Source of the DNA: a virus
Virus record (IMG/VR): IMGVR_UViG_3300031707_005111
Span: 1 to 43,964 of that record
DNA length: 43,964 nucleotides
Direction: 5' to 3' (one strand)
Under the pieces are notes generated by a model. That model was not told the origin of the DNA. It was given only the letters and a program-made list of their open reading frames with translations, and did not search any database. Below are positions 1-42,256 of this stretch, one piece after another. The position numbers and the translations under genes were made by a program. The stretch's first letter is position 1. Each line of letters starts with the position of its first letter.

Positions 1-127
1 TAAGGACATGGGTTGACCTTGCGGTTACTCTTACTATTTCCATGCCAGAATCATCAGCAGGGTCGGGATATGTCGCCTTGTCCCATAAGGTAACAAGGAA
101 ATCGCCAGACGCAGGAAAGACCGCCCC
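1..127. repeat. Terminal direct repeat, left copy (circular contig overlap)
   Basis: Bases 1-127 are identical to 43838-43964. An exact overlap of this length at both ends of a phage contig is the usual mark of a circular assembly. A collar gene reads in frame across the joint, so this is not a biological genome end. It could in principle be a true short terminal repeat, but an interrupted gene at a packaging terminus is less likely. Confidence 0.93.
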
Positions 128-8127: not shown

Positions 8128-9600
8128 TTAGGAAAGAGGGTCGTATTCTTTTTTCTGAGCTGCGTTTTCTTCGTTGCTTTTCTTTTTCACGACGGGATAT
8201 GCGAATGTCAGGGCTAATGCGTCTGCTCTGTTGGGCGATGCCAGTCCTCTTTTCTTCATGTCTTCTTTTGATTCAAGCAATATCTCTCCGGATAATTTTG
8301 GATATGCTTCGGGTCCTGTTAGATCATCAGCCAACCTCTGGTCATCAGGCATACAACCACCTTCCTGTAACCACTGTTTCGTCTTGCCCCACATCTCTGC
8401 GCGTTTATTGGCAAAACCTATAGTGTTTGATTTTGCTCCGAAGGATACAAGCATCCATTGCCGATTCATCTGTTTGCCAAATGAGAAAACTCCTGTACCA
8501 TAACCTAAGTCTATAAATACTGCGTCTGCTTTCTCCGCGTCCTCCCACTTAGCTACTGCTCCGGCTATTATTGCGTCGTCTTCGTTCCTTTGGAAGACCT
8601 GCAGCTGCCGGTATACTAAACCTTGTCTTAAACCGAGTACTATCTCATCCCCGCCGGTCCAGGCGTTGTCTACGCCTATGATCTTGGGGGCGAAGACGTA
8701 TTTATGGGCTTCGAGCTGACGACCCCTGGCTGCTTCTACTATGTCGTTGGGGATAAACTGCAGGTCGCTTGCCTTGGGGAATATGCCGAGGACATGTACC
8801 CTAACCCAGTCACTATCTATGCCTAAGTCTTCTATCCATTGTTTTATCTGTTGCTGGTTTACGAGATGGCTCTTACGGATATCTATCTGCCATTGTTTCC
8901 AGCGATGCCTGAATTTACCCCAGCATTCTTTGAAACGGCCAGTGTTACGGGTAGGGTTTCCGAAAACGAGCCATAATATCTGAGTGTTCTCATCTGTCAG
9001 CGCGCCTTCTGAAACTTCCCATATTTTGTCTGGAATAGCTGAGGCCTCATCAAATATCACGATTATACGCTTGCCTTTATTGTGTAGGCCGGCGAATGCT
9101 TCTGTCTTGTGCTCTGACCAGGGTACTTGGTCTATACGCCAGGTTCTTTCATGCTCCGGGTTCTTTGCGTAGATGGCTGTAGCGGTTAGTTCAAACCAAT
9201 GCTTGGCTATGAATAGCCGGTGCCATTTGCTCAGTTCTGCCCAGCTCTTAGTGCGCAACTGGGTTTCAGTATTGGCGGTTATTACTCCACGCGTGTCTTC
9301 AAAGGTTGATAGGCCCCAGAGGATTATCCAAGCTGCCAGAGTGCTTTTTCCTGGCCCGTTGCCTGAAGCTACGGCTACCTGAATGACTTGGGAGGGGGTC
9401 ATCCTTCCGGCTTGCAGTTGCTCCCTTAAGTATTTTAACGCCTCTGTCTGCCATTTATCTGGACCGTCAAAGCCTTCCAATTCGCCTTGACCCCACTTGA
9501 AGGCATAAAAAACCCAGCCATATGGATCGCTGGTATATGAAGCCATGTCTTCTCTTAGTTGGCGCTCAGTCTCTGCTTTTTCGGCGAGTAGTTCCTGCAT
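8128..9600 (-). CDS. terL: Terminase large subunit
   Basis: The 490-residue protein has the packaging ATPase motifs: Walker A as ASGNGPGKSTLAAW (about residues 78-91) and Walker B as IIVIFDEASAI near residue 172, followed by the coupling segment ILWLVFGNPTRNTG. The C-terminal nuclease part carries acidic residues in IIGVDNAW and VFIDLGYGTG and a late NRADALAL motif, as in RNase H-like terminase nucleases. It docks on the portal and pumps DNA into the procapsid. It overlaps terS by 35 bp. Confidence 0.95.
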   Translation of the reverse strand: MQELLAEKAETERQLREDMASYTSDPYGWVFYAFKWGQGELEGFDGPDKWQTEALKYLREQLQAGRMTPSQVIQVAVASGNGPGKSTLAAWIILWGLSTFEDTRGVITANTETQLRTKSWAELSKWHRLFIAKHWFELTATAIYAKNPEHERTWRIDQVPWSEHKTEAFAGLHNKGKRIIVIFDEASAIPDKIWEVSEGALTDENTQILWLVFGNPTRNTGRFKECWGKFRHRWKQWQIDIRKSHLVNQQQIKQWIEDLGIDSDWVRVHVLGIFPKASDLQFIPNDIVEAARGRQLEAHKYVFAPKIIGVDNAWTGGDEIVLGLRQGLVYRQLQVFQRNEDDAIIAGAVAKWEDAEKADAVFIDLGYGTGVFSFGKQMNRQWMLVSFGAKSNTIGFANKRAEMWGKTKQWLQEGGCMPDDQRLADDLTGPEAYPKLSGEILLESKEDMKKRGLASPNRADALALTFAYPVVKKKSNEENAAQKKEYDPLS

Positions 9601-10322: not shown

Positions 10323-11027
10323 TTATTTAAACATTCCAAATCTATCTAATAGCCGCTTCTCTGCAATCTCGATATATTTCGGGTTAAGTTCAATGCCTAT
10401 ATAATTCTGGCCGAGCTTCTTGGCCACAACCGCGGTGGTGCCTGCGCCCATAAATGGGTCGAGTACTACCCCCCCCTGCGGGCAGCCTGCTTTTATCATT
10501 GGTTCTATTAGGTCCTCGGGGTAGGTTGCAAAATGTGCCTCTTTGAATGGCCGGTTATTTACTGTCCATACGCTACGTTTATTTCTTACTCGCTCACCTT
10601 CTTCATTTTTAGACCATCGTACGTGGCCCCTTGCAGCAAATGTATGCGGGCTGTTCCCTGGGACTAATTCTTTATCCGCGTATTTAGTACTACCACGCAT
10701 TCTTTCCTGCTTTCGTCCATCATAGGCCGCTGCTTCTTGGATTGCCCGGTCATCTATTAAAACGTGGTATATCGGCTTGGCTGAGGTGTCCGGTGGATTA
10801 TGCGCGTTTGAGTTTATCGAGTCGTAGGGTATCTTGTTTCTGGCCAGGTAGGCTTTGAGCGCCGGCGTTGCCTTCCTGGTGGTCCAGATTATAATATGAT
10901 ATCCAGCTGCCTTGAGGATCTGCATTGCCTCTACCGCTTCCCAATTAGGCTTACCGAAGACATCCAGTCCCTTCCAGCCATCGTAATTTGCTATCACGCC
11001 GTCAAAATCAAAACAGATGGTCTTCAT
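10323..11027 (-). CDS. HAD hydrolase fused to C-terminal part of a DNA methyltransferase
   Basis: Residues 1-95 are a compact HAD-superfamily phosphatase: FDFDGV with the DxD nucleophile, the Thr motif in IIIWTTRK, and the IDDRAI acidic pair. From about residue 105 the sequence changes to the C-terminal part of an N4/N6 DNA methyltransferase of the beta type: KRSVWTVNNRPFKEAHFATY, then SAM-binding VLDPFMGAGTTAVVAKKLGQ and GIELNPKYIEIAEKRL. The N-terminal methyltransferase half with DPPY (motif IV) is absent. The SAM pocket is present but catalytic methylation by this chain alone is doubtful. Confidence 0.85.
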   Translation of the reverse strand: MKTICFDFDGVIANYDGWKGLDVFGKPNWEAVEAMQILKAAGYHIIIWTTRKATPALKAYLARNKIPYDSINSNAHNPPDTSAKPIYHVLIDDRAIQEAAAYDGRKQERMRGSTKYADKELVPGNSPHTFAARGHVRWSKNEEGERVRNKRSVWTVNNRPFKEAHFATYPEDLIEPMIKAGCPQGGVVLDPFMGAGTTAVVAKKLGQNYIGIELNPKYIEIAEKRLLDRFGMFK

Positions 11028-11787: not shown

Positions 11788-12524
11788 GGTTTACTCACAA
11801 TCTTCATCCCCGCTAAGATTTGTGCTATGGCTGGTGACACCGACGCCTTCTTCCATTCCCGGCCTTCCTTGATCTGCTGCTCTGCGTTCCAAGCTTCCCA
11901 CTCTTTCTGGGTAGTCACGATAAACCATGGCCAATCTGCTTTTATTCCGGCTTTGTTCTTTAAATAGCTTGTGCATATTTTGTTTATAACTTCTTCGGGT
12001 ATCTCTATCTTTTTAATTTTATTAAGCTTACCCATAAGCTGGTAAATATTAAAATCCTTACTTACTGTCTTTAATTGTTCTTGAGAATTTTCCTTAAAAG
12101 CAGCCCAGTAGGGCTGTTTCTTTATCTCTACTCTACTCAACTCTACTCTACTCAGGGGTAGTGCTAACTTACCACTACGGTAGTCCTCCTGTAGTATCTT
12201 TGGGGGAGTGGGGTATTTGCGTTTTGAGGGATGATTTATTGTTTGGTGCTTTGGCATGGTAGGACACCATAGCCAACGTTTCCCCTCGGCTTCAAAAAGG
12301 AAGTACCGGCGCATCGTTATTATTTCTTCTATAATCGCTTCTACATCAATATCGTCGGCCGGAAAAACCTGGCCTTTTAACATAAAAATATCATACGGCA
12401 ACACCCCTGTTTCATCGTCCATGTGACACCAGCTTAAGATATAAAAATATCTTGCGGGGATAGAGAGCTGGGCAATTTCTTGCTCTAAGGGGTATACTGG
12501 GTCAATCTGTCTTTTTCTTGCCAT
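11784..12524 (-). CDS. Phage replication protein (replisome-organiser-like)
   Basis: The first 100 residues (MARKRQIDPVYPLEQEIAQL, ARYFYILSWCHMDDETGVLP, then VEAIIEEIITMRRYFLFEAE and HQTINHP) match the winged-helix N-terminal domain of phage replication-initiation or replisome-organiser proteins. A linker with a short tandem LSRVE repeat (about residues 123-132) separates it from a helical C-terminal part. It lies between Avd and VRR-NUC in the early operon. The start has AAGGAG upstream. Confidence 0.78.
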   Translation of the reverse strand: MARKRQIDPVYPLEQEIAQLSIPARYFYILSWCHMDDETGVLPYDIFMLKGQVFPADDIDVEAIIEEIITMRRYFLFEAEGKRWLWCPTMPKHQTINHPSKRKYPTPPKILQEDYRSGKLALPLSRVELSRVEIKKQPYWAAFKENSQEQLKTVSKDFNIYQLMGKLNKIKKIEIPEEVINKICTSYLKNKAGIKADWPWFIVTTQKEWEAWNAEQQIKEGREWKKASVSPAIAQILAGMKIVSKP

Positions 12525-12560
12525 TGTAGCTCCTTAAATATTCTTTGAGTTAATCGATAA

Positions 12561-12818
12561 CTATTCGCCCAACGGAAATGACCCATGGATTAGAATCTTT
12601 AATTCTTCCAAAAGTTCGATTGCCTCTTGAAGTCTTACCTGTCTTTCTTGTTTTGCATTTGCCCGGGCAACCAAGATGAGAATCTTGCGAGAAAGATTGC
12701 AGAGATCAGCGCCTACGGTATATTTACAGTGCTTATCAAAGTGACGAACCACTGTATTAAAATACACGGTGAGGTCTAAAGCTTTCTTATATACCGGTAG
12801 TTGTTCGTAAAAACTCAT
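12561..12818 (-). CDS. avd: Avd-like DGR accessory protein, C-terminally short
   Basis: The product begins MSFYEQLPVYKKALDLTVYF and continues KYTVGADLCNLSRKIL and EAIELLEELKILI, matching the four-helix bundle Avd (accessory variability determinant) of diversity-generating retroelements. Avd forms a pentamer that binds the DGR reverse transcriptase. At 85 residues it ends after the third helix; typical Avd proteins are about 110-130 residues, so the last helix is missing. It sits 36 bp after a DGR-like target gene, as in DGR cassettes, but the next gene is a replication protein, not a template repeat and reverse transcriptase. Confidence 0.75.
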   Translation of the reverse strand: MSFYEQLPVYKKALDLTVYFNTVVRHFDKHCKYTVGADLCNLSRKILILVARANAKQERQVRLQEAIELLEELKILIHGSFPLGE

Positions 12819-12836: not shown

Positions 12837-12967
12837 AAATTGTCAAATCGCCAATCACTGGCTGGAGCGGACCGGACGCACATAATAGCTGCTGCCCTTA
12901 CTGCCGCTGTACACGTAGCCGTCGGCGAAGTACACGCACCACGCGATGCCTGAATCCCAAGCGCAAG
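12837..12967 (-). repeat. DGR variable region 1 (VR1)
   Basis: This 131-bp segment aligns without gaps to 18280-18410. There are 21 differences, all at first or second positions of 12 codons, nearly all ending in C or T (as if derived from AAC/AAT). Bases 12837-12885 are identical in both copies, including the stop codon and 18 bp beyond, as expected of an initiation-of-mutagenic-homing region. It also contains a short GCCA/TGGC hairpin around the stop codon. Confidence 0.88.
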
Positions 12968-13379
12968 GGGTGCTGGTCCAATACCAGGAACATTTGGTGT
13001 CCGGGAAAAATTTTGTATCTATGGTTGGCTCGTTATCCTTGGCACCGCGGGTATAGTCTACCAACTCGCGCAACTCCTCAACCGTAGGTAAACGCCAGTC
13101 TTTATGGCCAGCAAAGCTTAACTCTTTGCAGGCGTCTATGGCCTGCTGCCAGTTCATGTGTTCCTTAAACTTTTCCGGCAGGTCTGTATGAGGATTCTTG
13201 ACCCAGGTAAGGCCTGTTTTGGTGTCGGTTATGGTGCCGTTCTTGTTATCGATAAAGCGTACTCCAGGCTTTACTACTCTTTTTTTGGCTGGCTCGTATC
13301 CTACAGCCAGCATATCGCGGGCGATTCCGGGAATATCAATGCGATCCTCCAATATCCTTTCCACTTGTTTTTGTTTCAT
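12855..13379 (-). CDS. DUF1566 (C-type-lectin-fold) protein, DGR target 1
   Basis: Residues 40-174 form a DUF1566/Lcl C-terminal domain: RFIDNKNGTITDTKTGLTWV, then MNWQQAIDACKELSFAGH, KDWRLPTVEELRELVDY, WYWTST and a C-terminal YYVRPVRSSQ. The last 30 residues are the variable region. The N-terminal 40 residues are helical and charged, with no signal peptide, so the protein is probably cytoplasmic. It lies between ssb and avd in the early operon, preceded by a strong AGGAGG. Its binding partner is unknown; the lectin-like fold and diversified face suggest ligand recognition. Confidence 0.88.
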   Translation of the reverse strand: MKQKQVERILEDRIDIPGIARDMLAVGYEPAKKRVVKPGVRFIDNKNGTITDTKTGLTWVKNPHTDLPEKFKEHMNWQQAIDACKELSFAGHKDWRLPTVEELRELVDYTRGAKDNEPTIDTKFFPDTKCSWYWTSTPCAWDSGIAWCVYFADGYVYSGSKGSSYYVRPVRSSQ

Positions 13380-13404
13380 GCCTCCTCCTCTTTTGTTAAA
13401 TGTT

Positions 13405-13776
13405 TTATGATTGTTCTTCTTGTGTTGTTTCTTCTAACGATGTCCCCCCTTTAGTCCGGTCAAGAAATTGGATATTCTCTATCTGTATCTCTATCACGGA
13501 ATTCTTCTTACCATCTGGCCCATCCCAGGAGCGTGTCTGTAGCCGGCCTTCTACAAATATGTGGCTGCCTTTCTTTAAATATTCAGCGCAGTTTTCGGCC
13601 CTCTTACTCCAGACGGTGGCTGTTATGTATAACACCTGCTCTTTATCCTCTCCTGATTTTGTCTTGAAGGTGTGGTTAGATGCGAGCCTTAGGTTGCAGA
13701 CTGCGGTGCCTTGGGGGGTATACTTTAACTCGGGGTCCCGGGTTAGATTTCCTATTATCAGTGTCTTATTGAGCAT
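13405..13776 (-). CDS. ssb: Single-stranded DNA-binding protein
   Basis: The N terminus MLNKTLIIGNLTRDPELKYT and the motifs GTAVCNLRLAS, ITATVWSKRAENCAEYLKKG and IFVEGRLQTRSW are the OB-fold signature of bacterial-type SSB. At 123 residues it is shorter than host SSB, and its acidic tail (EETTQEEQS) lacks the DDDIPF-type tip that recruits host repair proteins. It protects ssDNA in replication and RecT-mediated annealing, coded in the same operon. Confidence 0.95.
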   Translation of the reverse strand: MLNKTLIIGNLTRDPELKYTPQGTAVCNLRLASNHTFKTKSGEDKEQVLYITATVWSKRAENCAEYLKKGSHIFVEGRLQTRSWDGPDGKKNSVIEIQIENIQFLDRTKGGTSLEETTQEEQS

Positions 13777-13787
13777 CTGTTTTCTCC

Positions 13788-14087
13788 TTACAGCATGTGT
13801 AACTGTTGCTCTTTTACGTGTTCTGTTTGCTCTTGGTAAATCCGTACAGCCCTTACGTGGCTACACTCTCTTCCTTTACGCCCCATCTGGCAATTACATA
13901 TAAGCTGGCCAAAATGTTCCTTTATCGTGTAGGTAGTTATGTTGTAGCCGGGGATGGGGAGGCATTGATAGACGCCGTCGGTTACCTTACTGATTTTACC
14001 GAGCTCGAGGAGTTTTTTTACTTTCTGATTCACAGGTTGCTCAAATGTCTTTGTACTTGCGTCGTAATGCTGAATGGTCTCAACCAT
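13788..14087 (-). CDS. SWIM zinc-finger protein (99 aa)
   Basis: The C-terminal half contains LICNCQMGRKGRECSHVRAV, the CxC...CxH pattern of SWIM zinc fingers, preceded by a short beta-rich region. The ATG at 14087 is chosen; a GTG three codons upstream is possible. It overlaps the end of the RlpA-like gene and lies just before ssb. SWIM domains bind DNA or partner proteins; a recombination or replication accessory role is inferred. Confidence 0.75.
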   Translation of the reverse strand: MVETIQHYDASTKTFEQPVNQKVKKLLELGKISKVTDGVYQCLPIPGYNITTYTIKEHFGQLICNCQMGRKGRECSHVRAVRIYQEQTEHVKEQQLHML

Positions 14088-14541
14088 TACTCTCACCCCC
14101 TCTCTTTACTACTTCTATCTCAACCGGTATAATACCCTGTTTAAGATCAGCAATTTTAGCAAATGCCTTTTTGCTAAGGTCAATGATGCGGCCTTTTTTG
14201 ACGAGTCTCTTGGCCGGTCCGCGATCAACGACCACAACAATGACCATTTTCCCATTCTCCAGATTAGTAACGCGCAGATGAGTTCCAAAAGGAAATAGCC
14301 AAGAAGCACAAGTAAAACTATTTTCATCATATGGTCTCCCACTGGCAGTCATGATGTGCGGGAATGGGTCGCATGTATCACCCACCCCGCCATACCACGA
14401 TGCTGTTTCGGAATAACAGTTTGTAGTTAATAATAAAATTAGAAGCCCGCACGAGATTAGACTCTGGATTTTTGTTTTTCCGTAAAGCTTTCTTTGATAT
14501 AGTGGTGGTAAGAACGACGCTTTTGCGTGTGCGGACTTCAT
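14080..14541 (-). CDS. RlpA-like double-psi beta-barrel protein, exported
   Basis: A positively charged N terminus and hydrophobic stretch (SLISCGLLILLLTTNCYS, about residues 28-45) form a signal peptide. The mature part carries RlpA family motifs: ETASWYGG, TASGRPYDENSFTCAS, FGTHLRVTNLENGK and VVDRGPAKR...GRIIDLSKKAF. RlpA proteins cleave naked glycan strands of peptidoglycan as lytic transglycosylases. Its place between recT and ssb is unusual; it may be the phage's wall-degrading enzyme or a lysogeny/superinfection factor. Confidence 0.85.
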   Translation of the reverse strand: MKSAHAKASFLPPLYQRKLYGKTKIQSLISCGLLILLLTTNCYSETASWYGGVGDTCDPFPHIMTASGRPYDENSFTCASWLFPFGTHLRVTNLENGKMVIVVVVDRGPAKRLVKKGRIIDLSKKAFAKIADLKQGIIPVEIEVVKRGGESNG

Positions 14542-14545
14542 GATT

Positions 14546-15625
14546 TTATCCCTGGCTTGCTGAGTAGGCTTTGCCTAACTCTGCTATCAGCTTATTTGCC
14601 TCTGGAATGCTTGGAATCTCCTCCATCTTCGAATAACCCAAACCTCCCAATACCTTCTGGTATATCTTATCCCCTACCTTTGACCTGGCTTTGGCTATGG
14701 TGTCCTGAATATTTTGGGGCAGGGGCGATTTTATTAGGGGTTCTTTCTCGGGTTCCTTGGCCGGTATGGCAGCATTCTTATTGGTCTGATCCGCTATTGC
14801 CGGCACATCGATGGGTTCTTCCCAGCTGGTTGTATCTGGCAAATCCATCGCGCTGTCTATGCCTTTGCGGTACTCCCGACTGGTTTCGTCTACTGCTATG
14901 GCGCGCTGCAGTTCTACAGAAAGAGGCAGTAGCTTGGCCAGCTGTATCAGAACCGTCTTCATGCACATTGCGTCAGGATCCTTGGCCCATGGGGAGCTGG
15001 GGTAAAATTCGCCCTTTTCTTTATCGTAGGTCTTGGCATGCTTCCTGCCGTGTTCCATAGCCTCGTCTTTTGACATAAAACGGAATACGCAGCCACCACT
15101 TTTCATCTTAGCTATGGCATAGTATCCGATGACTGGCCCCCGATCGCCAAGCACTGGCTTATGCTTTATAAAACTGTCTGTTCCATACACATAATCAAAA
15201 GAATCCTCTTTGTGTACGGTCTGCATCTCAATGGATAGGGCGACTTCATGCCGGTAGAATAACTCAGCCAAACCCTTATATCCTATGAGTGCCTGGACCT
15301 CAGGAACTACCTTCCATTCTTCCTTACCATTTACTATCAACTTGCGTTTATTTCTAAAAGGCAGAAGATACGCGCGACCGGCAATAGGCTCAAGGCCTAT
15401 CTGGGCAAGCACGAATAGGCTGCCTAAGAAACTCTGCGGTGTACATTTAGCAAGTTCTGGGTTTATGCGTATTGATGTTAGCGCTATCCGGACCAGTCGT
15501 TCCGGATTAAGGTGTGCTGGTAAGGTTTGCCCGAGCTCCTTTGCCGATTGTCTTATCAGTGTTTCCAGGCTGGTTTGTTCTCCTGTCTTCTCTAATACTT
15601 TGCTTACTTCTCCCTGTTTTGCCAT
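14546..15625 (-). CDS. recT: RecT family single-strand annealing recombinase
   Basis: The 359-residue product shows RecT motifs: LNPERLVRIALTSIRINPEL, CTPQSFLGSLFVLAQIGLEP, RAYLLPFRN, VQALIGYKGLAELFYRH and the helix SPWAKDPDAMCMKTVLIQLA. The C-terminal tail after residue 270 is Pro/Lys-rich and variable in the family. It anneals complementary strands produced by the upstream-coded YqaJ exonuclease. Confidence 0.93.
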   Translation of the reverse strand: MAKQGEVSKVLEKTGEQTSLETLIRQSAKELGQTLPAHLNPERLVRIALTSIRINPELAKCTPQSFLGSLFVLAQIGLEPIAGRAYLLPFRNKRKLIVNGKEEWKVVPEVQALIGYKGLAELFYRHEVALSIEMQTVHKEDSFDYVYGTDSFIKHKPVLGDRGPVIGYYAIAKMKSGGCVFRFMSKDEAMEHGRKHAKTYDKEKGEFYPSSPWAKDPDAMCMKTVLIQLAKLLPLSVELQRAIAVDETSREYRKGIDSAMDLPDTTSWEEPIDVPAIADQTNKNAAIPAKEPEKEPLIKSPLPQNIQDTIAKARSKVGDKIYQKVLGGLGYSKMEEIPSIPEANKLIAELGKAYSASQG

Positions 15626-15635
15626 GGCCTCCTCC

Positions 15636-16550
15636 TTATTTCTTTATGGCGTATCTCAATACTCGTTTTTCTTTTGGTGGTGCGTATTTTTCATACATCG
15701 CCGGCTCTTCTTTTTTGAAAAGTTCTGTATCAATCCTCCTTTCAGTTTGGTTCTTCCAAGTAATCTTGAATTTATTCGTCACCCCGGTTTCGAAGGTCTT
15801 AAGCTTGGCCCTTAAGCAGTTCTTCTGCTCTTCGATTTCTTTTTCTAATACCTTATAATCTGCCTGCATAGAATCAAGAGTCTCTACAAGTGCGTTTGTA
15901 TCATCACCGAGTTCGATAATGCTTTCCTCTGCGGCCTTGGGGAATAAGGCATAAAGTATGCCGCCGTCCTCTGAGGTTATAGTCATAGGCATGACTTTCG
16001 GCACGATGAAGTTATTCCAGAAAGCTACCTCTTTGGCGACCATGTCGTTTATTACCTTCTCGTCCCGGGTTATTTCCTTCCACTTGAAGTCCATGTTGCC
16101 TATCAGCACGGCGATGTAGGCCTTCTTTATGCCGGTTACGGCCAGGTAGTGCACACACTGGATTATGTATTCGATGGGTATTTCTTCTCCTTCCCACTCT
16201 CTGGTCTTGAACATGTTCGCTGTTTTACATTCAAGGATTGCATCTTCTCCGATTACCTTCCGGTCCAGATTCGCCCCGAGGAATGGGTATTTAGGATGGA
16301 ATATCGTATCGTTTACGCGCTGCACTTTCTTGCCGGTTTCCTCCATGAAGAACTCGGAAACGGTTTGCTCGAGTTTGTTACCCAGCTTTATGCATACCTT
16401 ATCCGATATATCCAGCGGTACTACCTGACCGGTTTTTATTGCCCATACTTCAAGGGGAGTTTTGTACCGGGACAGGCCCAAGATTGCCGCAGCATCGCTG
16501 CCTCCGATATAATTCTTTCTTGCCTCTACCTGTTCTTTGGTTAGCTCCAT
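15636..16550 (-). CDS. YqaJ-like viral recombinase (lambda-type exonuclease)
   Basis: The N-terminal NYIGGSDAAAILGLSRYKTP, then VWAIKTGQ, LGNKLEQTVSEFF and the PD-(D/E)XK centre FLGANLDRKV...AILECKT followed by EYIIQCVHYLAVTG are the hallmarks of YqaJ phage exonucleases. The 5'-3' digestion of linear duplex generates single strands for RecT. The C-terminal 100 residues are coiled-coil and basic. It lies between the SbcC-like ATPase and recT. Confidence 0.92.
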   Translation of the reverse strand: MELTKEQVEARKNYIGGSDAAAILGLSRYKTPLEVWAIKTGQVVPLDISDKVCIKLGNKLEQTVSEFFMEETGKKVQRVNDTIFHPKYPFLGANLDRKVIGEDAILECKTANMFKTREWEGEEIPIEYIIQCVHYLAVTGIKKAYIAVLIGNMDFKWKEITRDEKVINDMVAKEVAFWNNFIVPKVMPMTITSEDGGILYALFPKAAEESIIELGDDTNALVETLDSMQADYKVLEKEIEEQKNCLRAKLKTFETGVTNKFKITWKNQTERRIDTELFKKEEPAMYEKYAPPKEKRVLRYAIKK

Positions 16551-16551
16551 A

Positions 16552-18111
16552 TTATCCTCGCGTTTCTATTTTGAGTTCTCCGTCAGTGACTTCAGTCACG
16601 AAGAACTGGAAACCCTCGGTTTCTCCTATCTGCTTCAGAAATTCTTCCCTTACTGTCTCATCGAGATGCTCGAGTTTATCTACACAGATTAACTTGAGGG
16701 GATTATCTTTTGCGAGTACCCTGGCGATATCCAGACATGTCCTTACCTGCTGGGATGTGGAGAGGTTTGACAAGGGCAGGTCGTTTATCGTCACTATCCC
16801 TTTACCGTCTACGCCGAGGCCTTTGATTGGCAGTTCTACTTTGGTGAGTAGTTCGTGTGGCTTGAGGCGCGCGGCATCAACCAACTTGTCATAACGCTGC
16901 GCGGTGGTAGTTTCGGCCTCAAGGCGTTGTCTTAATGCCTCTACTTCTTTGGCCAGCGGTATGTAGGATTTCATTTGCTCGGCCTGGGTGCATCTTTCTT
17001 TTATGGGGTTTGTGTCAATGAGTTGGTGAACCTCGAGGAAGAATTCTGCCTGTTTCTTCTTTGTATCTAACCTGGCCAGTTCTCCTTTTCTGTTTTCGTT
17101 AATGTCGTATAGTTGCACCTGAGTTACTTTATCCATGGCTTGTTTCTTTTCAGCCAGACTTAGTGCATCGAGGTTTTTTATGTCGGTCTTTAGCGCTATC
17201 TTCTGTTTCTCAAGTTCCTGAATTTGTGCGTCTATGACCTCTATCTGTTGCCTGAAGTCGTTCTTCCGAGTCTCTATGGTATCCTTGGCCTTTTTAAACT
17301 CAGCTGCCCCGTATTCCTTGACTTCCTTTTCCTTAAGGGCGTATTTGTTATTGATGGCTTCTACGGCGTTGGCGTATTCAGTGAGTACTTCGGAGGATAC
17401 CTTGATATCCAAATTTGTGTTCTCGGCGTCTCTAAGTTCAGCAAACAGTTCGCCCAACTTTACCTCTACCCAATCCTCGAGCTTGTAGTTATCCGGCAAC
17501 CTCTTGGCTACGGCCGCGCATTCGTCTTCAACAGCCTTCACCCTGGCGTTTGCCTCGCGCCTGGCGTCGTAAAACCATTGCTCTAAATCCTTTAGTACCT
17601 GCAGGCCATGCTTCTCGTAGTTTACTTTTGGCGCTTCTCCAAACCAGGCCTGCGCATCTGCTGATGTTACTGTAATTGGCAAAAGTCCAAGCAGGATATC
17701 GGTCTGCTCGGTATCTTTCTTCGTCATAAAATCGACAGGGTTAAACGCGAAGACATCGTGGCTTCGTTTACCGTCTGAGCCGAATAATTCTTTAAGGAAA
17801 GTCTCTGGGGCCTTTATCGGTTGGCCATCCTTGGTTACCTTTACCGAACCTGCGTCTAATCCGGCTTCGTCTTCTTTTACAGTCCGGCGTATACTTATGC
17901 CATCATCTGTGTCAAGCTCGATATATGCCTTATCTGCTCCGGCCCGGACGAACCGCGCACGTCGCTTTGTGTTATGGATCGCCTTCTCTATGGTCTCGAG
18001 TATCGATGTCTTGCCCCGCTCGTTGCCACCACTTATTACATTGACCTTGCCTGGGTTTATGGCGAGCTCCTCTATCCCCAAGCAGTCTTTTATTACCAGT
18101 CGCTTAATCAT
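16552..18111 (-). CDS. SbcC/Rad50-like AAA ATPase
   Basis: The 519-residue protein has an N-terminal Walker A, SGGNERGKTSILETIEKAI (about residues 27-45), a long coiled coil (about 190-400), and a C-terminal ABC-type signature LSTSQQVRTCLDIARVLA with Walker B-like LKLICVDKLEHLD, where Lys replaces the usual catalytic Glu. This is the small SbcC/RecF-like family found in phage recombination operons beside YqaJ and RecT. No SbcD nuclease partner is coded here. Confidence 0.88.
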   Translation of the reverse strand: MIKRLVIKDCLGIEELAINPGKVNVISGGNERGKTSILETIEKAIHNTKRRARFVRAGADKAYIELDTDDGISIRRTVKEDEAGLDAGSVKVTKDGQPIKAPETFLKELFGSDGKRSHDVFAFNPVDFMTKKDTEQTDILLGLLPITVTSADAQAWFGEAPKVNYEKHGLQVLKDLEQWFYDARREANARVKAVEDECAAVAKRLPDNYKLEDWVEVKLGELFAELRDAENTNLDIKVSSEVLTEYANAVEAINNKYALKEKEVKEYGAAEFKKAKDTIETRKNDFRQQIEVIDAQIQELEKQKIALKTDIKNLDALSLAEKKQAMDKVTQVQLYDINENRKGELARLDTKKKQAEFFLEVHQLIDTNPIKERCTQAEQMKSYIPLAKEVEALRQRLEAETTTAQRYDKLVDAARLKPHELLTKVELPIKGLGVDGKGIVTINDLPLSNLSTSQQVRTCLDIARVLAKDNPLKLICVDKLEHLDETVREEFLKQIGETEGFQFFVTEVTDGELKIETRG

Positions 18112-18128
18112 TTCCCCCTCCTTAAAGT

Positions 18129-18260
18129 TTATTTAACAAATGCCATAATAAGTAACCCGAGTACCACGCACACCAAAATTACGGTAGCGTTAAACGGCGC
18201 TTCACGGATGCGTTTGTAGTAATACGGGTGTATCTGTTTCAAATGTGGGTTTACCAACAT
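18129..18260 (-). CDS. Tiny single-pass membrane protein (43 aa)
   Basis: An ORF of 43 codons has a good AAGGAG ribosome site. The N-terminal half is basic and aromatic (MLVNPHLKQIHPYYYKRIRE); residues 23-41 are one transmembrane helix ending IMAFVK. It lies between VR2's gene and the SbcC-like ATPase gene. Function unknown. Confidence 0.65.
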   Translation of the reverse strand: MLVNPHLKQIHPYYYKRIREAPFNATVILVCVVLGLLIMAFVK

Positions 18261-18279
18261 AAGGACTCCTTAAAAACTT

Positions 18280-18410
18280 AAATTGTCAAATCGCCAATCA
18301 CTGGCTGGAGCGGACCGGACGCACATAACTGAGGCTGCCCTTAAGGCCGACGTCCACGACGCCGAAGTAGAAGCGCACGCACGACGCGTAGCCTGAAACC
18401 CAAGCGCAAG
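18280..18410 (-). repeat. DGR variable region 2 (VR2)
   Basis: This segment is the partner of VR1 (12837-12967): 131 bp, no gaps, 21 substitutions confined to first and second codon positions, and 49 bp of perfect identity at the stop-codon end. Sequence upstream of the segment is no longer alignable at DNA level, so homogenisation ends exactly at the segment edge. Confidence 0.88.
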
Positions 18411-18750
18411 AATCTCCCGTCCAATAGTAATCATCAGTCTTAGTGTCTGGAAATATCTCTTTATCTATAGCGGGATTGTATTTTGTAATATCCAGAAGTG
18501 ATTCGAGTTCTTTGCGGGTAGGCAACCGGCAACCCATTTTTTTGCATTCTTCATTAGCTTCTGCCCAAGTTAATTTCTTAGATAACGTCGGATACCAAAT
18601 AAGCTTTTCCTGGGTATCGGTTACTGTGCTATCAGAATTACGGACGAAACGACCGTCTTTGCTGCGAAGAGTCGACGTAATAACGACTGACTGCGGTTTT
18701 AGATAATCCCTGATTTCCTTCAAAACGCTCAAAACTGTTTCTTTTACCAT
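18298..18750 (-). CDS. DUF1566 (C-type-lectin-fold) protein, DGR target 2
   Basis: The 150-residue protein has the DUF1566 pattern: STVTDTQEKLIWYP, KLTWAEANEECKKMGCRLPT, RKELESLLDITKYNPAIDKE, YYWTGDSCAW and the end SYVRPVRSSQ. The 12 residues that differ from target 1 in the last 36 are the presumed ligand-facing positions. It has a helical N terminus (MVKETVLSVLKEIRDYL) and no signal peptide, pointing to the cytoplasm. It belongs to the early leftward operon and has a GGAGG site. Confidence 0.87.
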   Translation of the reverse strand: MVKETVLSVLKEIRDYLKPQSVVITSTLRSKDGRFVRNSDSTVTDTQEKLIWYPTLSKKLTWAEANEECKKMGCRLPTRKELESLLDITKYNPAIDKEIFPDTKTDDYYWTGDSCAWVSGYASCVRFYFGVVDVGLKGSLSYVRPVRSSQ

Positions 18751-25432: not shown

Positions 25433-25592
25433 AGTGCATCACGCTTTAATGAATATCCTTGAGCCTATTTATATGAAGATGTTTATTCACGACAGCTACG
25501 CCTACCGCCAGCAATCAGCAACCGATGACACATTAGCCTGTGTTACTTTTCAAAAAACGTCGCCGAGCGTGTTCCGTGTTCGGCTTACTTCG
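25433..25592 (-). other. Non-coding gap after the tail fibre gene
   Basis: This 160-base stretch has no convincing gene. Just after the fibre stop a weak GCCGA/TCGGC stem precedes TTTTTT on the minus strand, a poor terminator. At 25502-25519 it contains a 16/18 copy of the fibre sequence at 25699-25716 (see findings), in the place where a DGR template repeat would be expected. Confidence 0.5.
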
Positions 25593-27800
25593 TTAAACGG
25601 GCTCCGCGCAAAACCGGCAACCGAAATCCGAATGCGTAGCCCAGCGAGAGTCAACCGTATACCGACCCCGGGAACCGCAATGCACGCCGTGGTCCCAACC
25701 ACCGCCAGCAACCAGCTCTACATCATTTGTTTTTGCGACGCGATATAATTGACCCTTATCTCCGGGTAAATCGTACCACCCGGCTGTAACCGCATCTTCC
25801 CACATTGTGGCATGTTCATCTAACCACTGCCAGAGCGCACCACAGGCGTCTTCAACACCTATATTGGAAATCATACGCCTTGAGGCTGTATCTATATGCC
25901 CGCCGGTAGTGCCGGGGTCACCTGAACCGTAGATATTTGTACCTTCATTTGACCCTGTGGCTATAACTTGAAATTCAGGATCAGTTAACATTTTTTTCTT
26001 TACCGCTCCACCATCATCTGTAAAATCGTTCCAGTCGCGGGTGTCGCTTATGGTCCCGCCGTTTACTGAAAGCGTAGACGCTCCGGTCCCCGAGGCTAAG
26101 TAAATATCTACCCACTTGTTTATGCCATCGCTGTATACCATACCTTCAGGATTAGCGAATTTAGGCTTAAAGTTTAAGTCCCAAATTGAGGCTGGCAGAA
26201 CATCGCCAGCTACAAAATCGGTCAAGGTATGGCCTGAAATAGTGCCTACGGCTACACAAAGCCCGTGAAAACCGCCAATCTTACGGCTGGTTGTGCCACT
26301 ATATCCTGATGGCGTAGTTGAATTGGCAGATAGCTTAATCGTAGGAGCTGATCCACTTACAGGCACGCAGGCGTAAATATAGAAGTCTTTGCCTGCGCGG
26401 TTTGCAGCCGTCCTGTAATCTGTTCCGGCAATAGTATCCCAGTTAGCTTCAAGAGATAAAGCTATCTCTGCTTGAGCGGTCAAGAAGTAGACTGTGCCGT
26501 TTATATCTACTGAGAGCTTGGCGGGTGTTAAGATGGTGTACCTGTTGGCTGCTGTTGAGTACGGCGTCTTTAAAATCCACTTCTGGTCGCGCTGGTAAAG
26601 CGAAGGATAAAGAGCTGCTAACTTCTCAGCAAGATAACCGGCCGCTGCGTCTCCTGAGACGTTCTTTACTTTTTCGTCCGAGCCTGCCGGACCTGTTGCT
26701 CCTTGGGTCCCGGATACGTTTATAGTCCAATCTGTATGCGTTCCGCTTCCTCCGATATCCAAGACGTTTACTACTAAGGACGTGCCGGTATAGCTTGTTA
26801 CCTGGCCGTGCATGTAGTTTGTCGGGTCGGCATCGCTGGTGATTAGAATAAACTGACCGGCTGCGAATTGCTTACCGGCTTGAGTGGTAAAGGTCTTACT
26901 GCCGGTTGCTATGGCTATGCTTGAGGTTGAAGTAGCTTTAAGGGCGGCGGCATAGTTTTGGGCTAAATCCCGCGCTGCTTCCGCGGCCACTTGGGCGGCT
27001 TCTGCGTTTGTCTCGGCCGTTTCAGCATTGGTCTCGGCTGTCTCTGCTGCGTTCTTGGCCGTGACGGCGTCGTTCTTGGCGGTCACTGCATCGTTTTTGG
27101 CAGTTATGGCCGTATCTCTGGCGCTCTCCGCTGCGGCTTGGGCGGTCTCTGAGTTGGTTTCCGCAGTCTCAGCGTTGGTCTTAGCGGTTTCGGCTGCTGA
27201 CTGAGCTGCTTCCGCTGCGGCTTGGGCGGTCTCTGAGTTGGTTTCCGCAGTCTCAGCGTTGGTCTTAGCGGTTTCGGCGTTGGTTTTAGCTATCTCAGCG
27301 GCTGTCTGAGCCGCTTGGGCGGCTACCTTCGCTGCTTCAGCTGCAACAACTTTCTGGTTAAGTATCGTAATAAATGCTTCTGTATCGTCACTGGTGGGAA
27401 TTTGGTCTACCGGATATTTTATCGCTCGGCTTAGCGCCTCATTCTCTTGCTGCGCAATCATTGTAACTTTATCCAAGGCAGCCTCGACTGTTTCAGCGTT
27501 AAATGGCCCTTGGTTGACCCAGTCAGAACCCTGAGATAATGGTTCACTCCGCAGCAATGTTATCTTTTCGCCTGTGGCCAATAAAGGCAAACCTGATGCT
27601 ACCGTCGGATATGTAACGTATTTGTTCACTACGCTGACGGAATAGTTACTGGTTATCTCGGTTATGGCACCACTAATAGCGGTTTTATACAACTTGATAT
27701 CTGAGCCGTCCGCGGTAGCTATTGAAAAAGTAAAATCCCAATTTCTGGTCGTATTATTGCCATTGTAAACATGTTTTATACTTCCTGCCTGTACGGTCAT
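25593..27800 (-). CDS. Tail fibre with T7-type N terminus and C-type-lectin-like tip
   Basis: The 735-residue fibre has three parts. Residues 1-130 match the T7 gp17-type virion-attachment domain (SIKHVYNGNNTTRNWDFTFS, FNAETVEAALDKVTMIAQQE). Residues 150-290 are an Ala/Thr/Asn-rich coiled coil of repeated AETAKTN/AETAETN units. After a SGTQGATGPAGS hinge, the C-terminal 170 residues form a lectin-like domain (GVEDACGALWQWLDEHATMW, LYRVAKTNDVELVAGGGWDH) ending GCRFCAEPV, like DGR-diversified receptor-binding tips. Confidence 0.88.
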   Translation of the reverse strand: MTVQAGSIKHVYNGNNTTRNWDFTFSIATADGSDIKLYKTAISGAITEITSNYSVSVVNKYVTYPTVASGLPLLATGEKITLLRSEPLSQGSDWVNQGPFNAETVEAALDKVTMIAQQENEALSRAIKYPVDQIPTSDDTEAFITILNQKVVAAEAAKVAAQAAQTAAEIAKTNAETAKTNAETAETNSETAQAAAEAAQSAAETAKTNAETAETNSETAQAAAESARDTAITAKNDAVTAKNDAVTAKNAAETAETNAETAETNAEAAQVAAEAARDLAQNYAAALKATSTSSIAIATGSKTFTTQAGKQFAAGQFILITSDADPTNYMHGQVTSYTGTSLVVNVLDIGGSGTHTDWTINVSGTQGATGPAGSDEKVKNVSGDAAAGYLAEKLAALYPSLYQRDQKWILKTPYSTAANRYTILTPAKLSVDINGTVYFLTAQAEIALSLEANWDTIAGTDYRTAANRAGKDFYIYACVPVSGSAPTIKLSANSTTPSGYSGTTSRKIGGFHGLCVAVGTISGHTLTDFVAGDVLPASIWDLNFKPKFANPEGMVYSDGINKWVDIYLASGTGASTLSVNGGTISDTRDWNDFTDDGGAVKKKMLTDPEFQVIATGSNEGTNIYGSGDPGTTGGHIDTASRRMISNIGVEDACGALWQWLDEHATMWEDAVTAGWYDLPGDKGQLYRVAKTNDVELVAGGGWDHGVHCGSRGRYTVDSRWATHSDFGCRFCAEPV
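25596..25706 (-). repeat. Candidate DGR variable region 3 (tail fibre tip)
   Basis: The last 37 codons, from GGGWDH to CAEPV, follow the GGxW..G..CGSRxR..xxSRW...S..G.RF spacing of DGR-variable phage tips. At the presumed variable positions nearly all codons end in C or T (GAC, CAC, CAT, GGT, TAT, GTT, GAC, GCT, CAT, GAT, TTC), as expected from AAC/AAT template codons. It shares no sequence with VR1/VR2, and no second copy exists in the window. Confidence 0.6.
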
Positions 27801-34778: not shown

Positions 34779-36439
34779 TACTTTTTCTCCTCTTTCGCTG
34801 CTTTCTCTTTATAAGTTACCACTGGCTCTATGGTTCCATCTGGATAAACAATGGCTTTATTGCCATAAGCATCCATCATCAGCTGACCTTTTGGTGATAA
34901 GGTTGCTGCCTCTGGAATCTTCTGGTATATATGATTCTGCATTATCACTTTTGCTGCATCTTGGGGATTCGCTTGCCCTTGCTGCAGGGTGCCTAATAGC
35001 TGTTTGACTCTCAGGGTTATTTCCTCGTCGCTGGCGTTGTTTTTCCCCATCCACGACTTTAGCGACTTTATTGCACTGTTTATCGGCCCAGTGTTGCGAT
35101 TGAATTCTATGTCTTTTAAGTTTGTCTTTAAGTTGTTTAAGAATACTGCTTCTTGTGAATTTATAATTCCATCTGTGTAGGCCTCAGACAACTTCTCCCT
35201 GGCGTGCCATTTATCTGTGTCCTCATTAATAAAGGCATCGATAAGGTCAACGTATCCTTTTACTGCTTTTGCCCGGGCAGTCGGGTCTTTATCGGGAGTT
35301 TTCTCTGTCAGCATTCTATTGAGGTCTTTTTGGATTCCGTTCTGGATTGCTTTTTGGTAGTTCACCAGAATTTTTTTCTTCAGGCCTCCGATATCTTCAG
35401 GTATCTGCATTTCGTTTTCTATGTCTGTCAAGGTCAGTTTCCCTTTAGCCAAGTTATCGAGTAGTTCGTTATGCCTTGTTTCTTGACTATCGGTAATCAT
35501 CCTCTCGGCCAGAGTATTCGTAAAATCGTAGGCCCCCTTGCGTTTTACGGGGTCTTTGATATCGTAGGTATTAGATTCTAATTTTTTCCGAGTAGAAATG
35601 GGATCTAAGAATGCGTCTTGTATAGCTATCCTATATGGTATTCCACTTTCTATTTCTTCCTTCATCTTCTCAGATATTTCGGCAGGGACTTTTCCCTTTA
35701 CTACATTATAAATAGACTGAGCTTTTATCAGGTTATTCTCTGCCATCGCAGATGAGAATGCACTTTTAGCTACCTTGCCCCTTACATCTATCCTCTGAGC
35801 CTCGGCGGTTTTTTCATCATATCCATTTATCTTGCTGAGCGTATCCTGGGTAACTATAGCCGCATCTATTGCCCTTATTACAGAAGGGCCGTCCTGCAGC
35901 TGCGCGGCGTCATTTACTTGAATATCTAAGTTGGATTTGAAAGAGTTTTGGATGCTCTTATCTATCTCGTTGCGTTCATAGCGGATTATATTATCCCTGT
36001 GGCTTAGGTAGGTTGAATCAAGCATTTTCGCCAGGGCATCTTTCTGCTCGGGGGCCGCCACATTATTCAGGTATTTCTTTCTTATGTTGGAGTAGGTCTG
36101 GTCGAATTCAGGGGTTATGTTTTGCGTCTGGTCGAGCTTGCGGCTTAAAAATCCCAGGGGTTTTCCGTTCTTATCAGTCTGGTCATTGTACAAGACATTC
36201 TGCATTTCCTGACGGAACATCGTGTCCTGCTCTGTTACCTGTTTTGCCATCAATTCTTTTCTGCGCTCTGCTGCCCTCTGCATAATGGCATTGGCTATCT
36301 TCATGCCGGTTTCACCGAGCCTGGTTGTTGCTTCTGCCATTTCCGTTCCAAAGGCTGCGGCAGGAGGTCTTAACTCCTGAGGCGTTGAAACGTTTGGGGT
36401 TATTCTGCTTGTTTGTCGTTCATAGACCGGAACTTTCAT
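34778..36439 (-). CDS. Internal virion protein (gp15-like)
   Basis: The 553-residue protein is almost entirely helical and charged, starting MKVPVYERQTSRITPNVSTP with a long coiled-coil region (AEATTRLGETGMKIANAIMQ, RAAERRKELMAKQ). It has no signal peptide or transmembrane segment. Order tubular B–gp13-like–gp14-like–this gene–giant protein–fibre matches the ejection proteins of T7-type phages, where gp15 and gp16 form the trans-envelope conduit. Stop and next start overlap by one base. Confidence 0.78.
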   Translation of the reverse strand: MKVPVYERQTSRITPNVSTPQELRPPAAAFGTEMAEATTRLGETGMKIANAIMQRAAERRKELMAKQVTEQDTMFRQEMQNVLYNDQTDKNGKPLGFLSRKLDQTQNITPEFDQTYSNIRKKYLNNVAAPEQKDALAKMLDSTYLSHRDNIIRYERNEIDKSIQNSFKSNLDIQVNDAAQLQDGPSVIRAIDAAIVTQDTLSKINGYDEKTAEAQRIDVRGKVAKSAFSSAMAENNLIKAQSIYNVVKGKVPAEISEKMKEEIESGIPYRIAIQDAFLDPISTRKKLESNTYDIKDPVKRKGAYDFTNTLAERMITDSQETRHNELLDNLAKGKLTLTDIENEMQIPEDIGGLKKKILVNYQKAIQNGIQKDLNRMLTEKTPDKDPTARAKAVKGYVDLIDAFINEDTDKWHAREKLSEAYTDGIINSQEAVFLNNLKTNLKDIEFNRNTGPINSAIKSLKSWMGKNNASDEEITLRVKQLLGTLQQGQANPQDAAKVIMQNHIYQKIPEAATLSPKGQLMMDAYGNKAIVYPDGTIEPVVTYKEKAAKEEKK

Positions 36440-36450
36440 TAGATTTTCTC

Positions 36451-37086
36451 CTAACCTAATTTATATGGACTCCAAGTTGTCCCAAACTGCTGAGTCTGAA
36501 TAGTCTGGCCACCTTTACCACCTGTAATAGTTGAACCTTTACTGCCACCGCCTAAACCACCTGCCCCCATCAATGCTATCGATGAGGCCGTGCCTAAAAG
36601 GGTACTGGTCATATTTATTGCCGCGGCCTGCCTGGCGGATTTGCCGGCGAATCTATACAGCGTTGCTTGGTTTCTCAGCGCCCAGCCTTTTTCTGCGGCT
36701 TCTTTTTTGGCTGCCCAAGAACTTATATCAGCGTTATACCTTATGTTTGCCTCATCGAGCTTGGCTCTGTTGGTAGTATCTGTCAGGATATCTTCTGCTG
36801 TTACGCCATATATTCCCATTGCTGCCATAGCAGCTCTCTGCGCACCCTTTACTCTGGAGACATCGCCTTTTAATTCTTTGGCTCTCTGCGCCGCTTCGTT
36901 TTGAGCTATGGTTGTCTGCTGTTCTGCTGTCTTTTGCGCCGCTTCTGCCTCGCGTTCGTTCTGGTCGGCTAAATATTTATAGTATTTATCTTGAGACTTA
37001 CCGGCCTGATATTGTCCGTAGGCGGCTACGCCTCCAGAAGCAGCCATAGCTGCAATTCCTATTCCCAAAACAACAGGTGCGCACAT
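36451..37086 (-). CDS. Internal virion protein (gp14-like)
   Basis: The 211-residue protein starts with a hydrophobic stretch (VVLGIGIAAMAASGGVAAYG), followed by a long Ala/Gln-rich helix (KYLADQNEREAEAAQKTAEQ...) and an ASSIALMGAGGLGGGSKGST segment. This matches the T7 gp14 internal virion protein family, which inserts in the outer membrane during DNA ejection. It is coded between the gp13-like and gp15-like genes as in that family. Confidence 0.82.
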   Translation of the reverse strand: MCAPVVLGIGIAAMAASGGVAAYGQYQAGKSQDKYYKYLADQNEREAEAAQKTAEQQTTIAQNEAAQRAKELKGDVSRVKGAQRAAMAAMGIYGVTAEDILTDTTNRAKLDEANIRYNADISSWAAKKEAAEKGWALRNQATLYRFAGKSARQAAAINMTSTLLGTASSIALMGAGGLGGGSKGSTITGGKGGQTIQTQQFGTTWSPYKLG

Positions 37087-40666: not shown

Positions 40667-42256
40667 CTAAAACGCATTCTCATTCACTACTCCGTGCAAG
40701 TCTAAGTTTCCGCTATCCCTCATTCTCGCTGCTTCCGCGCCTTCAACGAGGAATGTAATCCAATGGTTAGTGCTATCGTATTTGAAACCTGTCCTTCCTA
40801 ATGAAACGCTTATGATTTGCGTACCTGTAGTTAAGTCAAGGGACGTCGCAATCTGGGTAATAGAAGCTGTAACTAAAGTTGTTATTACCTGGGTACCTGT
40901 AGCGAGAGTTAACGAAGTCGCCGTTTGGGTTACGCTGATAACCCTTGTGGTTTCTACTAATTGGTCGCCTTTGGTAAGCGCTAAAGAGGTATATATCTGT
41001 GTAACATTAACTATTCTGGTTGTGGCGACCGCCTGTGTCCCTGATGTCAAATTCAAAGCGACTGCAACTTGTGAAATGCCGACCGATATCTGCGCCGTTA
41101 TACTTTGTATTCCCGCAGTCAGATTAAGCGAAGCAGTAACTTGAGATATGTTTATTGAAATTTGCGCCGCAACTGTTTGCATCCCAGTAACGAGTGTTAA
41201 TGAAGCCGCTACTTGGGTAACGCTGGCATCAACTACAGTTCCTGCGGAAACCGATTGTGTGCCTACCGATAAAGACAGACTCTCCGCTACCTGTACAATA
41301 CTAACATTATTTATTGTGGCAATCGCTTGTGTCCCCTTTGATAGGGATAATGAAGTGGCAATTTGGGAAATTCCTACAATTTGAATAGTAGTGACTGCCT
41401 GCGTTCCCGTCGCTAATGTAAGAGAAACGGCGGTTTGAGATATAGATATACTTACCTTAGCCACTATTGCCTGCGTTCCTGATGAGAGTGAAAGCGAAGT
41501 GGCAACCTGGCTTACGGATGCGTCTATGTGCGCCGCTATAACTTGCGTGCCTGCGGTAAGCGATAAGGATGCTACTATCTGACTAATGGACACATTTATT
41601 TTTGCGACTATACTTTGAGTTCCTACACTTAGTGAAAGTGAAGAGGCAATTTGTGCAATGCTCGCTTCCTGGACAGCAGCGATTGCCTGAGTGCCTATTG
41701 AAAGAGATAATGAGGCAGCGACTTGAGATATACTTACTATATTTACAGTGACTACGGTTTGCGTGCCTGAACTAAGAGATAAGGAAGCCGCAATTTGAGT
41801 TACAGATGCGTTTATATGTGCCACAATAGTTTGAGTTCCCGATGAGAGGGACAATGAAGCGGCAGATTGACTTACAGATGTGCTTATCTGTACTTCTATG
41901 CTTTGAGTGCCTGTAGATAGAACGAGGGCTTTAGCGACCTGACTTACAGATATGTTTACTTGAGCAGCAATACTTTGGGTTCCTGCCGAGAGAGTTAAAG
42001 AAGCAACGACTTGCGTAATGCTGGCATTGACTAAAACATTGGCGACTACCGTCTGAGTTCCAGTAGTCAAAGCAAGTGAGGTGGCAACTTGGGATATAGA
42101 CGCTGATGTCAGTATATTGGCCTCAATCGCCTGTGTCCCCTTTGATAAGGTTAGACTCGCCGCTACTTGGGTAACTGAGGCATTGACTATGCCACCCGTA
42201 GGCACATATTTTTCAGTATTGAAATCATTGGTATTAAATCCACCTTGATTAAACAT
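40667..42256 (-). CDS. 19-repeat beta-solenoid-like structural protein (529 aa)
   Basis: After a 25-residue start (MFNQGGFNTNDFNTEKYVPT) the protein consists of 19 tandem repeats of 23-26 residues with consensus xSxSQVAxSLSLSxGTQxIxA, to about residue 480, then a unique 40-residue C-terminal domain (FKYDSTNHWITFLVEGAEAA...NENAF). Regular Ser/Thr/Val/Ala spacing fits a stacked beta-fold, probably an extended fibre or spike shaft. It lies between the glycosyltransferase and nozzle genes, so it is probably a virion appendage. The copy number could vary by recombination. Confidence 0.85.
   Translation of the reverse strand: MFNQGGFNTNDFNTEKYVPTGGIVNASVTQVAASLTLSKGTQAIEANILTSASISQVATSLALTTGTQTVVANVLVNASITQVVASLTLSAGTQSIAAQVNISVSQVAKALVLSTGTQSIEVQISTSVSQSAASLSLSSGTQTIVAHINASVTQIAASLSLSSGTQTVVTVNIVSISQVAASLSLSIGTQAIAAVQEASIAQIASSLSLSVGTQSIVAKINVSISQIVASLSLTAGTQVIAAHIDASVSQVATSLSLSSGTQAIVAKVSISISQTAVSLTLATGTQAVTTIQIVGISQIATSLSLSKGTQAIATINNVSIVQVAESLSLSVGTQSVSAGTVVDASVTQVAASLTLVTGMQTVAAQISINISQVTASLNLTAGIQSITAQISVGISQVAVALNLTSGTQAVATTRIVNVTQIYTSLALTKGDQLVETTRVISVTQTATSLTLATGTQVITTLVTASITQIATSLDLTTGTQIISVSLGRTGFKYDSTNHWITFLVEGAEAARMRDSGNLDLHGVVNENAF

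Follow-up and report, generated by a model that had tools for sequence, protein, structure and literature searches.

The phage genome recorded in IMG/VR as IMGVR_UViG_3300031707_005111 (43,964 nt, analysed over its whole length and hereafter called the window) carries variable regions (VRs) of diversity-generating retroelements (DGRs), whose enzymes randomise selected codons in lectin-like proteins, together with the scars of the machinery that made them. We consider it highly probable that two of these regions (VR1 and VR2, in the early genes A and B) are genuine DGR products of one template, that another (VR3) stems from a second DGR, and that both DGR cores have been deleted, leaving the diversity frozen. 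The first-pass annotation had recognised two variable regions in one phage; both proved real, but the count was incomplete, since a third lies in the tail fibre (25603-25716). The contig is closed by a 127-bp terminal direct repeat and represents a complete genome (feature coordinates in Table 1).

The segments 12837-12967 and 18280-18410 align over 131 bp without a gap, and a recount reproduced the pattern that had first drawn attention to them: the 21 differences are confined to 12 codons, all of them at codon positions 1 or 2 of the coding (-) strand and none at third positions, C or T is the third base in 11 of the 12 variable codons (all except TGG/TCG), and 49 bp (12837-12885 and 18280-18328) are identical and extend beyond both TGA stops. 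As had also been claimed, the upstream parts of the two genes do not align at the DNA level; their proteins are homologous (42% identity) and both carry Lcl_C / C-type-lectin domains (PF07603 scores of 126 bits for gene A and 73.5 bits for gene B, vs a curated cut-off of 34.9). The label ‘early genes’ holds as well, the neighbours being SSB, RecT, a RecE-like exonuclease and a replication initiator. For the gene A product, an AlphaFold2 model (pLDDT 84; confident from residue 41 on, with block means mostly above 90) has as its top PDB match the C-terminal domain of Legionella Lcl (8q4e), with C-type lectins next; the target has a C-type-lectin fold and the VR at its C-terminus. By hydrophobicity, no signal-like segment was found in the target proteins (two control targets do show one), and the VR1 protein had no match in 50,697 phage records.

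The template itself was found in a complete close relative, IMGVR_UViG_3300049911_000188 (G001; 43.6 kb, terminase 98%, ends in a 131-bp near-perfect terminal repeat), whose early locus consists of one gene A homologue (88%), a 120-aa Avd, a template repeat (TR) and a 367-aa reverse transcriptase (RT); gene B has no counterpart there. This early template (TR2) has 30 A among 104 positions, and the VR of G001 differs from it at 14 positions, all 14 of them at A. The proposal of adenine-targeted homing from one template is therefore supported, as the G001 template stands beside Avd and a DGR-type RT, at the very site of the window deletion. The accompanying prediction of a template with A at all 21 variable sites next to an RT was borne out for the location and for 18 of the sites, while the remaining three are not A. 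Because 18 of the 21 differences between VR1 and VR2 coincide with template adenines (p about 1e-9), chance is excluded as the source of the pattern. The non-A differences are sites at which VR1 and VR2 agree against the G001 template, or at which they vary where that template has G, and the template of the window lineage was therefore its own and differed slightly from that of G001; judged from these sequences, the three exceptional sites would represent divergence between the two phages' own templates. Overall, the VRs depart from the relative's templates almost solely at A (VR3 16/16, VR1 14/17, VR2 20/24). The coincidence of the changes with template A sites led us to reject gene conversion between the two lectin genes.

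In the window no TR was detected (the next-best site has 20 mismatches at 83 constant sites), nor any DGR-type RT gene other than remnants of 22 and 34 codons. The first remnant marks the loss of the early core: avd runs for about 78 codons and is then joined, bluntly and with no shared bases, to the last 22 codons of the early RT gene (RT2), so that in comparison to G001 about 1.36 kb was lost, with the TR and the remaining RT. The accessory gene is present yet truncated (phrog_3206 ‘Avd protein of DGR’, E=5e-10; NF033474, E=2e-6), and full length in relatives. As TR and RT were in the phage lineage and their remnants are still in place, a template residing in the host, which we had considered, is unnecessary.

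The second remnant lies at the tail-fibre gene, whose product shows the Mtd domain architecture (PF21916, E=3.5e-16, 59.9 bits vs a cut-off of 24.6) and also corresponds to the phrog_11262 tail protein (E=9e-55). In G001 this locus comprises a VR, a template (TR1) and an RT (RT1), i.e. a second, unrelated DGR; VR3 of the window differs from this TR1 at 16 sites, all of them A, and at 0 of 88 non-A sites (p=4e-13). What is left in the window is a stub of the template and an inverted scrap of RT1 (88% protein identity), after which the downstream genes follow. The inverted piece is 12-20% diverged from known RT1s, and the junction lies outside shared repeats. RT1 and RT2 are 39% identical and fall into separate clades with full support; among the RVT_1-tested records, two RTs in one record occur in G001 and G004 alone, with one each in 26 other RT-bearing viral records. 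A conserved protein of ~104 aa with no Pfam match directly follows RT1 in the tail-fibre DGR (L090, 12881-13195; L103, reverse strand, 8227-8538) and is gone from the window; it may be an accessory that replaces Avd. We regard it as very likely, jointly with the reading given at the outset, that the lineage once had two complete DGRs and that separate deletions took TR and RT together with the end of avd.

The identity past the stop codon had been attributed to homing from the template, which is right for part of it, as the TR copy does run on, but TR homology stops at CCAGCCA, beyond which come 22 VR-specific bp (GTGATTGGCGATTTGACAATTT in VR1). This 22-bp element is the same in VR1, VR2 and the VR of G001 and is not in the TR. 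More generally, TTTGACA occurs 9-13 nt beyond TR homology in 14 of 17 VRs of the family and in 0 of 9 TRs, counts that come from related sequences and are not independent trials. BPP-1-type VRs are followed by a GC-rich stem of 7-10 bp with a GRNA loop (PMC3240598), whereas the VRs described here have a linear TTTGACAATTT element: the 70 nt surrounding the VR 3' ends contain no GC-rich stem of at least 6 bp, and the window offers just one 4-bp stem (GCCA/TGGC). We suggest that the conserved, VR-only TTTGACAATTT motif occupies the position usually held by the GC-rich hairpin, and that it would account for the identity beyond the stop. Used alone, the pattern CAGTGATT-N1-8-TTTGACAATT recovered three VR ends in the Omnitrophota metagenome-assembled genome (MAG) G066, with 0 hits for a reversed control pattern, and gave 17 matches in IMG/VR, 8 of which are VR ends (two of them new). 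The possibility that TTGACA is a sigma-70 -35 box was set aside, as the flanks show no fitting -10 (by inspection, no formal promoter test having been made) and the motif stands after VRs but not after TRs. In more distant DGRs (L182, L187, L192, L209, L216 and others) tandem ATTTG/ATTTGG-like units were observed 3' of the VR, and these are possibly a longer form of the TTTGACAATTT element.

By analogy with BPP-1, the RT of working relatives would copy the TR transcript into cDNA with random bases at A (assisted by Avd in the early system), and the cDNA would replace the VR under guidance of the common 3' end TTATGTGCGTCCGGTCCGCTCCAGCCA and, probably, of the VR-only motif; on the lectin face, AAY codons would thereby turn into NNY. 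The window has kept the products of this process, which itself would have stopped unless another element supplies TR and RT, and the variants are probably frozen by now. With regard to timing, a comparison with G001 shows 16 synonymous and 4 nonsynonymous changes in the RT1 scrap and 3 and 0, respectively, in the avd codons present in both; from this synonymous excess it follows that selection acted on RT1 and avd during most of the period after the split from G001. Furthermore, VR1 equals VR2 at 98/98 non-A sites, where a freeze dating from the split would predict 7-12 differences (at the 7-12% divergence from G001), which places a rough 95% upper bound of 25-44% of that time on the frozen period. 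These estimates are approximate and come from few sites. The loss of both cores is thus apparently recent.

The early cassette (two Lcl targets, Avd, TR and RT) is also present in G002, G004, L107, L109 and L112, as well as in two Omnitrophota MAGs (L175 and L176), which are the top genomic matches of RT2 (74 and 71%; the next, at 54%, belong to other phyla). The window terminase has matches of 79% and 68% in two Omnitrophota genomes and none in the two best RT2 genomes. On these similarities the host is probably a member of the Omnitrophota. In L030, a close relative (RecT 97%, terminase 88%), the whole early cassette is missing. G421 (41.2 kb, flanked by a 43-bp terminal repeat) combines a homologous tail fibre with a motif-bearing early Lcl target but has no RT, and this complete-looking genome may be another instance in which both DGRs were lost, while G422 is a fragment and little informative. 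Similarly, an Omnitrophota prophage (G138) carries an early Lcl gene with the motif, in a MAG with no RT2 match. In G421 and G138 the constant VRPVRSSQ C-terminus is altered at non-A sites (VWPVR, VRPVRSCQ), as is expected of disused VRs. We also observed that MAG G066 (L329; positions 5455, 7537 and 12433) has an intact Avd/RT with three Lcl-type targets nearby, the third ~3 kb downstream of the RT, and that the only three N-runs in 15 kb fall one in each VR, which suggests hypervariability that the assembler could not resolve; an internal stop suspected in its RT proved to be the terminal stop.

Three points weigh against the reading of lost cores and frozen products: the window VRs depart from the nearest template at 3-4 non-A sites, which makes it necessary to suppose a lost template of the lineage's own; the frozen state is read from an assembly and not from reads; and there is some small probability that the assembler joined a minority deletion variant at either junction. 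The last two bear on a pair of alternatives. It is conceivable, though unlikely, that the VRs are still diversified by the RT and TR of a co-resident prophage, a host DGR or a co-infecting relative, which would spare the phage the cost of its own machinery. Homing in BPP-1 works with avd, TR and RT in trans (Guo 2011, PMC3240598), and such service is reported for incomplete DGR loci of Thiohalocapsa PB-PSB1 (PMC10907252); moreover, the post-VR elements of the window are intact, VR3 still equals TR1 at 88/88 non-A sites, and RT-less targets recur in G421 and the G138 prophage. Nevertheless, a TR2-like 27-mer (up to 2 mismatches) had no match in 384 Omnitrophota genomes and IMG/VR held no matching TR2 beyond G001, the template signature of G001 is missing from VR1 and VR2, and the RT-less G421 and G138 carry non-A changes in the constant end. 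We likewise treat as doubtful the broader proposal that RT-less phages of this Omnitrophota group retain DGR targets whose VR-only recognition elements are intact, and that RT-bearing relatives in a shared host rediversify these targets in trans; if true, RT-less phages would exploit the hypermutation machinery of other phages.

We also judge improbable that most genomes of the population keep RT and TR, and that the contig depicts a deleted minority or a mis-join. There is precedent in DGR 7 of PB-PSB1, for which long reads revealed intact variants (PMC10907252), and TR/VR repeats trouble assemblers; yet neither junction of the window falls within a shared repeat (a blunt avd/RT2 join in one case, a diverged inverted RT1 piece in the other), and a single genome that is otherwise closed is unlikely to contain two errors of this kind. 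That the targets were acquired by recombination from DGR phages, by a lineage that never owned the machinery, would fit the lack of gene B in G001 and of the cassette in L030, but is refuted for the lineage, and very improbable, given the truncated avd and the RT2 and RT1 remnants at their expected positions. Finally, an ordinary duplication of lectin domains that then diverged under diversifying selection, with no DGR involved, would explain why both genes encode one domain family and is refuted, with next to no probability left to it, by the zero third-position changes, the identity beyond the stop and the template A at the variable sites.

Table 1. Features of the window and of the RT-less genome G421 (positions on the respective sequence)
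Feature	Position	Strand	Basis or remark
DGR target gene A	12855-13379	-	174 aa, Lcl_C / C-type lectin fold, PF07603 E=1.1e-36
VR1, TR-homologous stretch	12859-12962	-	17 differences from the relative's TR, 14 at A
Post-VR element of VR1	12837-12858	-	GTGATTGGCGATTTGACAATTT, past TR homology and stop codon
DGR target gene B	18298-18750	-	150 aa, Lcl_C, PF07603 E=2.2e-20
VR2, TR-homologous stretch	18302-18405	-	24 differences from the relative's TR, 20 at A
Post-VR element of VR2	18280-18301	-	as for VR1
avd, truncated	12561-12818	-	~78 N-terminal residues out of 120, followed by 7 foreign ones
Early RT 3'-end remnant	12520-12586	-	residues 344-365, GHFRWANSYRLTQRIFKELQW; junction about 12583/12584
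Tail fibre, target of the second DGR	25593-27800	-	Mtd second domain and C-terminal variable domain
VR3 in tail fibre	25603-25716	-	all 16 differences from G001 TR1 at A
TR1 stub, first 17 nt of template	25503-25519	-	GCTGATTGCTGGCGGTA, truncated
Inverted RT1 fragment, 34 codons	25401-25502	+	residues 75-108, 102 bp
Terminal direct repeat	1-127		identical to 43838-43964
G421 (L349-L351) tail fibre	16638-17432, 17913-18092		same lineage as window tail fibre
G421 early Lcl gene	36289-36669	-	post-VR motif present

Two other features of the window genome were recorded. The gene at 40667-42256 (-) encodes a protein of ~24-residue repeats (S-I/V-SQ-V-A-x-SLSLSxGTQ-x-I; 72-bp DNA units), and a single gene at 10323-11027 (-) combines a phosphatase-like N-terminus with a DNA methyltransferase C-terminus that are two genes in G001 (141 and 448 aa), being an apparent deletion fusion and the third deletion-like event in this genome.

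In its general layout the lineage resembles the BPP-1 system (Mtd, Avd, bRT), with which it shares a podovirus-like phage with GP7-family capsid and Mtd-like tail fibre, an Avd, A-specific TR/VR change and a C-type-lectin target; unlike BPP-1, it has another DGR whose two early targets are not tail proteins, and in the window both cores are deleted. One TR serving two VRs in one phage is already known from the tentaclin phages nd4/nd12 (PMC10743442) and the Faecalibacterium prophages Lelie, Lagaffe and CP11 (PMC11792537), in contrast to which the targets considered here are small Lcl_C proteins in a replication operon, with three VRs, two DGRs and the RT lost. Target loci that have neither RT nor TR of their own are also known from a bacterium (Thiohalocapsa PB-PSB1, PMC10907252), but there they lie on a chromosome with other DGRs in the genome, and here the genome is that of a complete phage and contains no RT. 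The best fold match and Pfam family point to the C-terminal domain of Legionella Lcl (8q4e), a collagen-like adhesin, whereas the phage proteins (150-174 aa) have no collagen stretch or signal-like segment. In the open-access papers searched we found no description of a phage lineage with two unrelated DGRs of which one serves early-operon lectin genes, of a complete phage genome that has lost both cores yet retains every VR, or of a linear VR-only motif replacing the hairpin.

Taken together, these observations extend a picture in which phage DGRs are known mostly as diversifiers of tail fibres, as here one of them serves a pair of lectin genes beside replication genes, and lectin-fold targets in a replication operon have no obvious role in host attachment. 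The VR-only motif offers a handle for finding RT-less targets and a concrete alternative to the hairpin in recognition. Moreover, G001 with both systems intact, the window with both cores deleted and L030 with no cassette form a natural series of genomes from which the cost, the benefit and the loss of hypermutation can be read.

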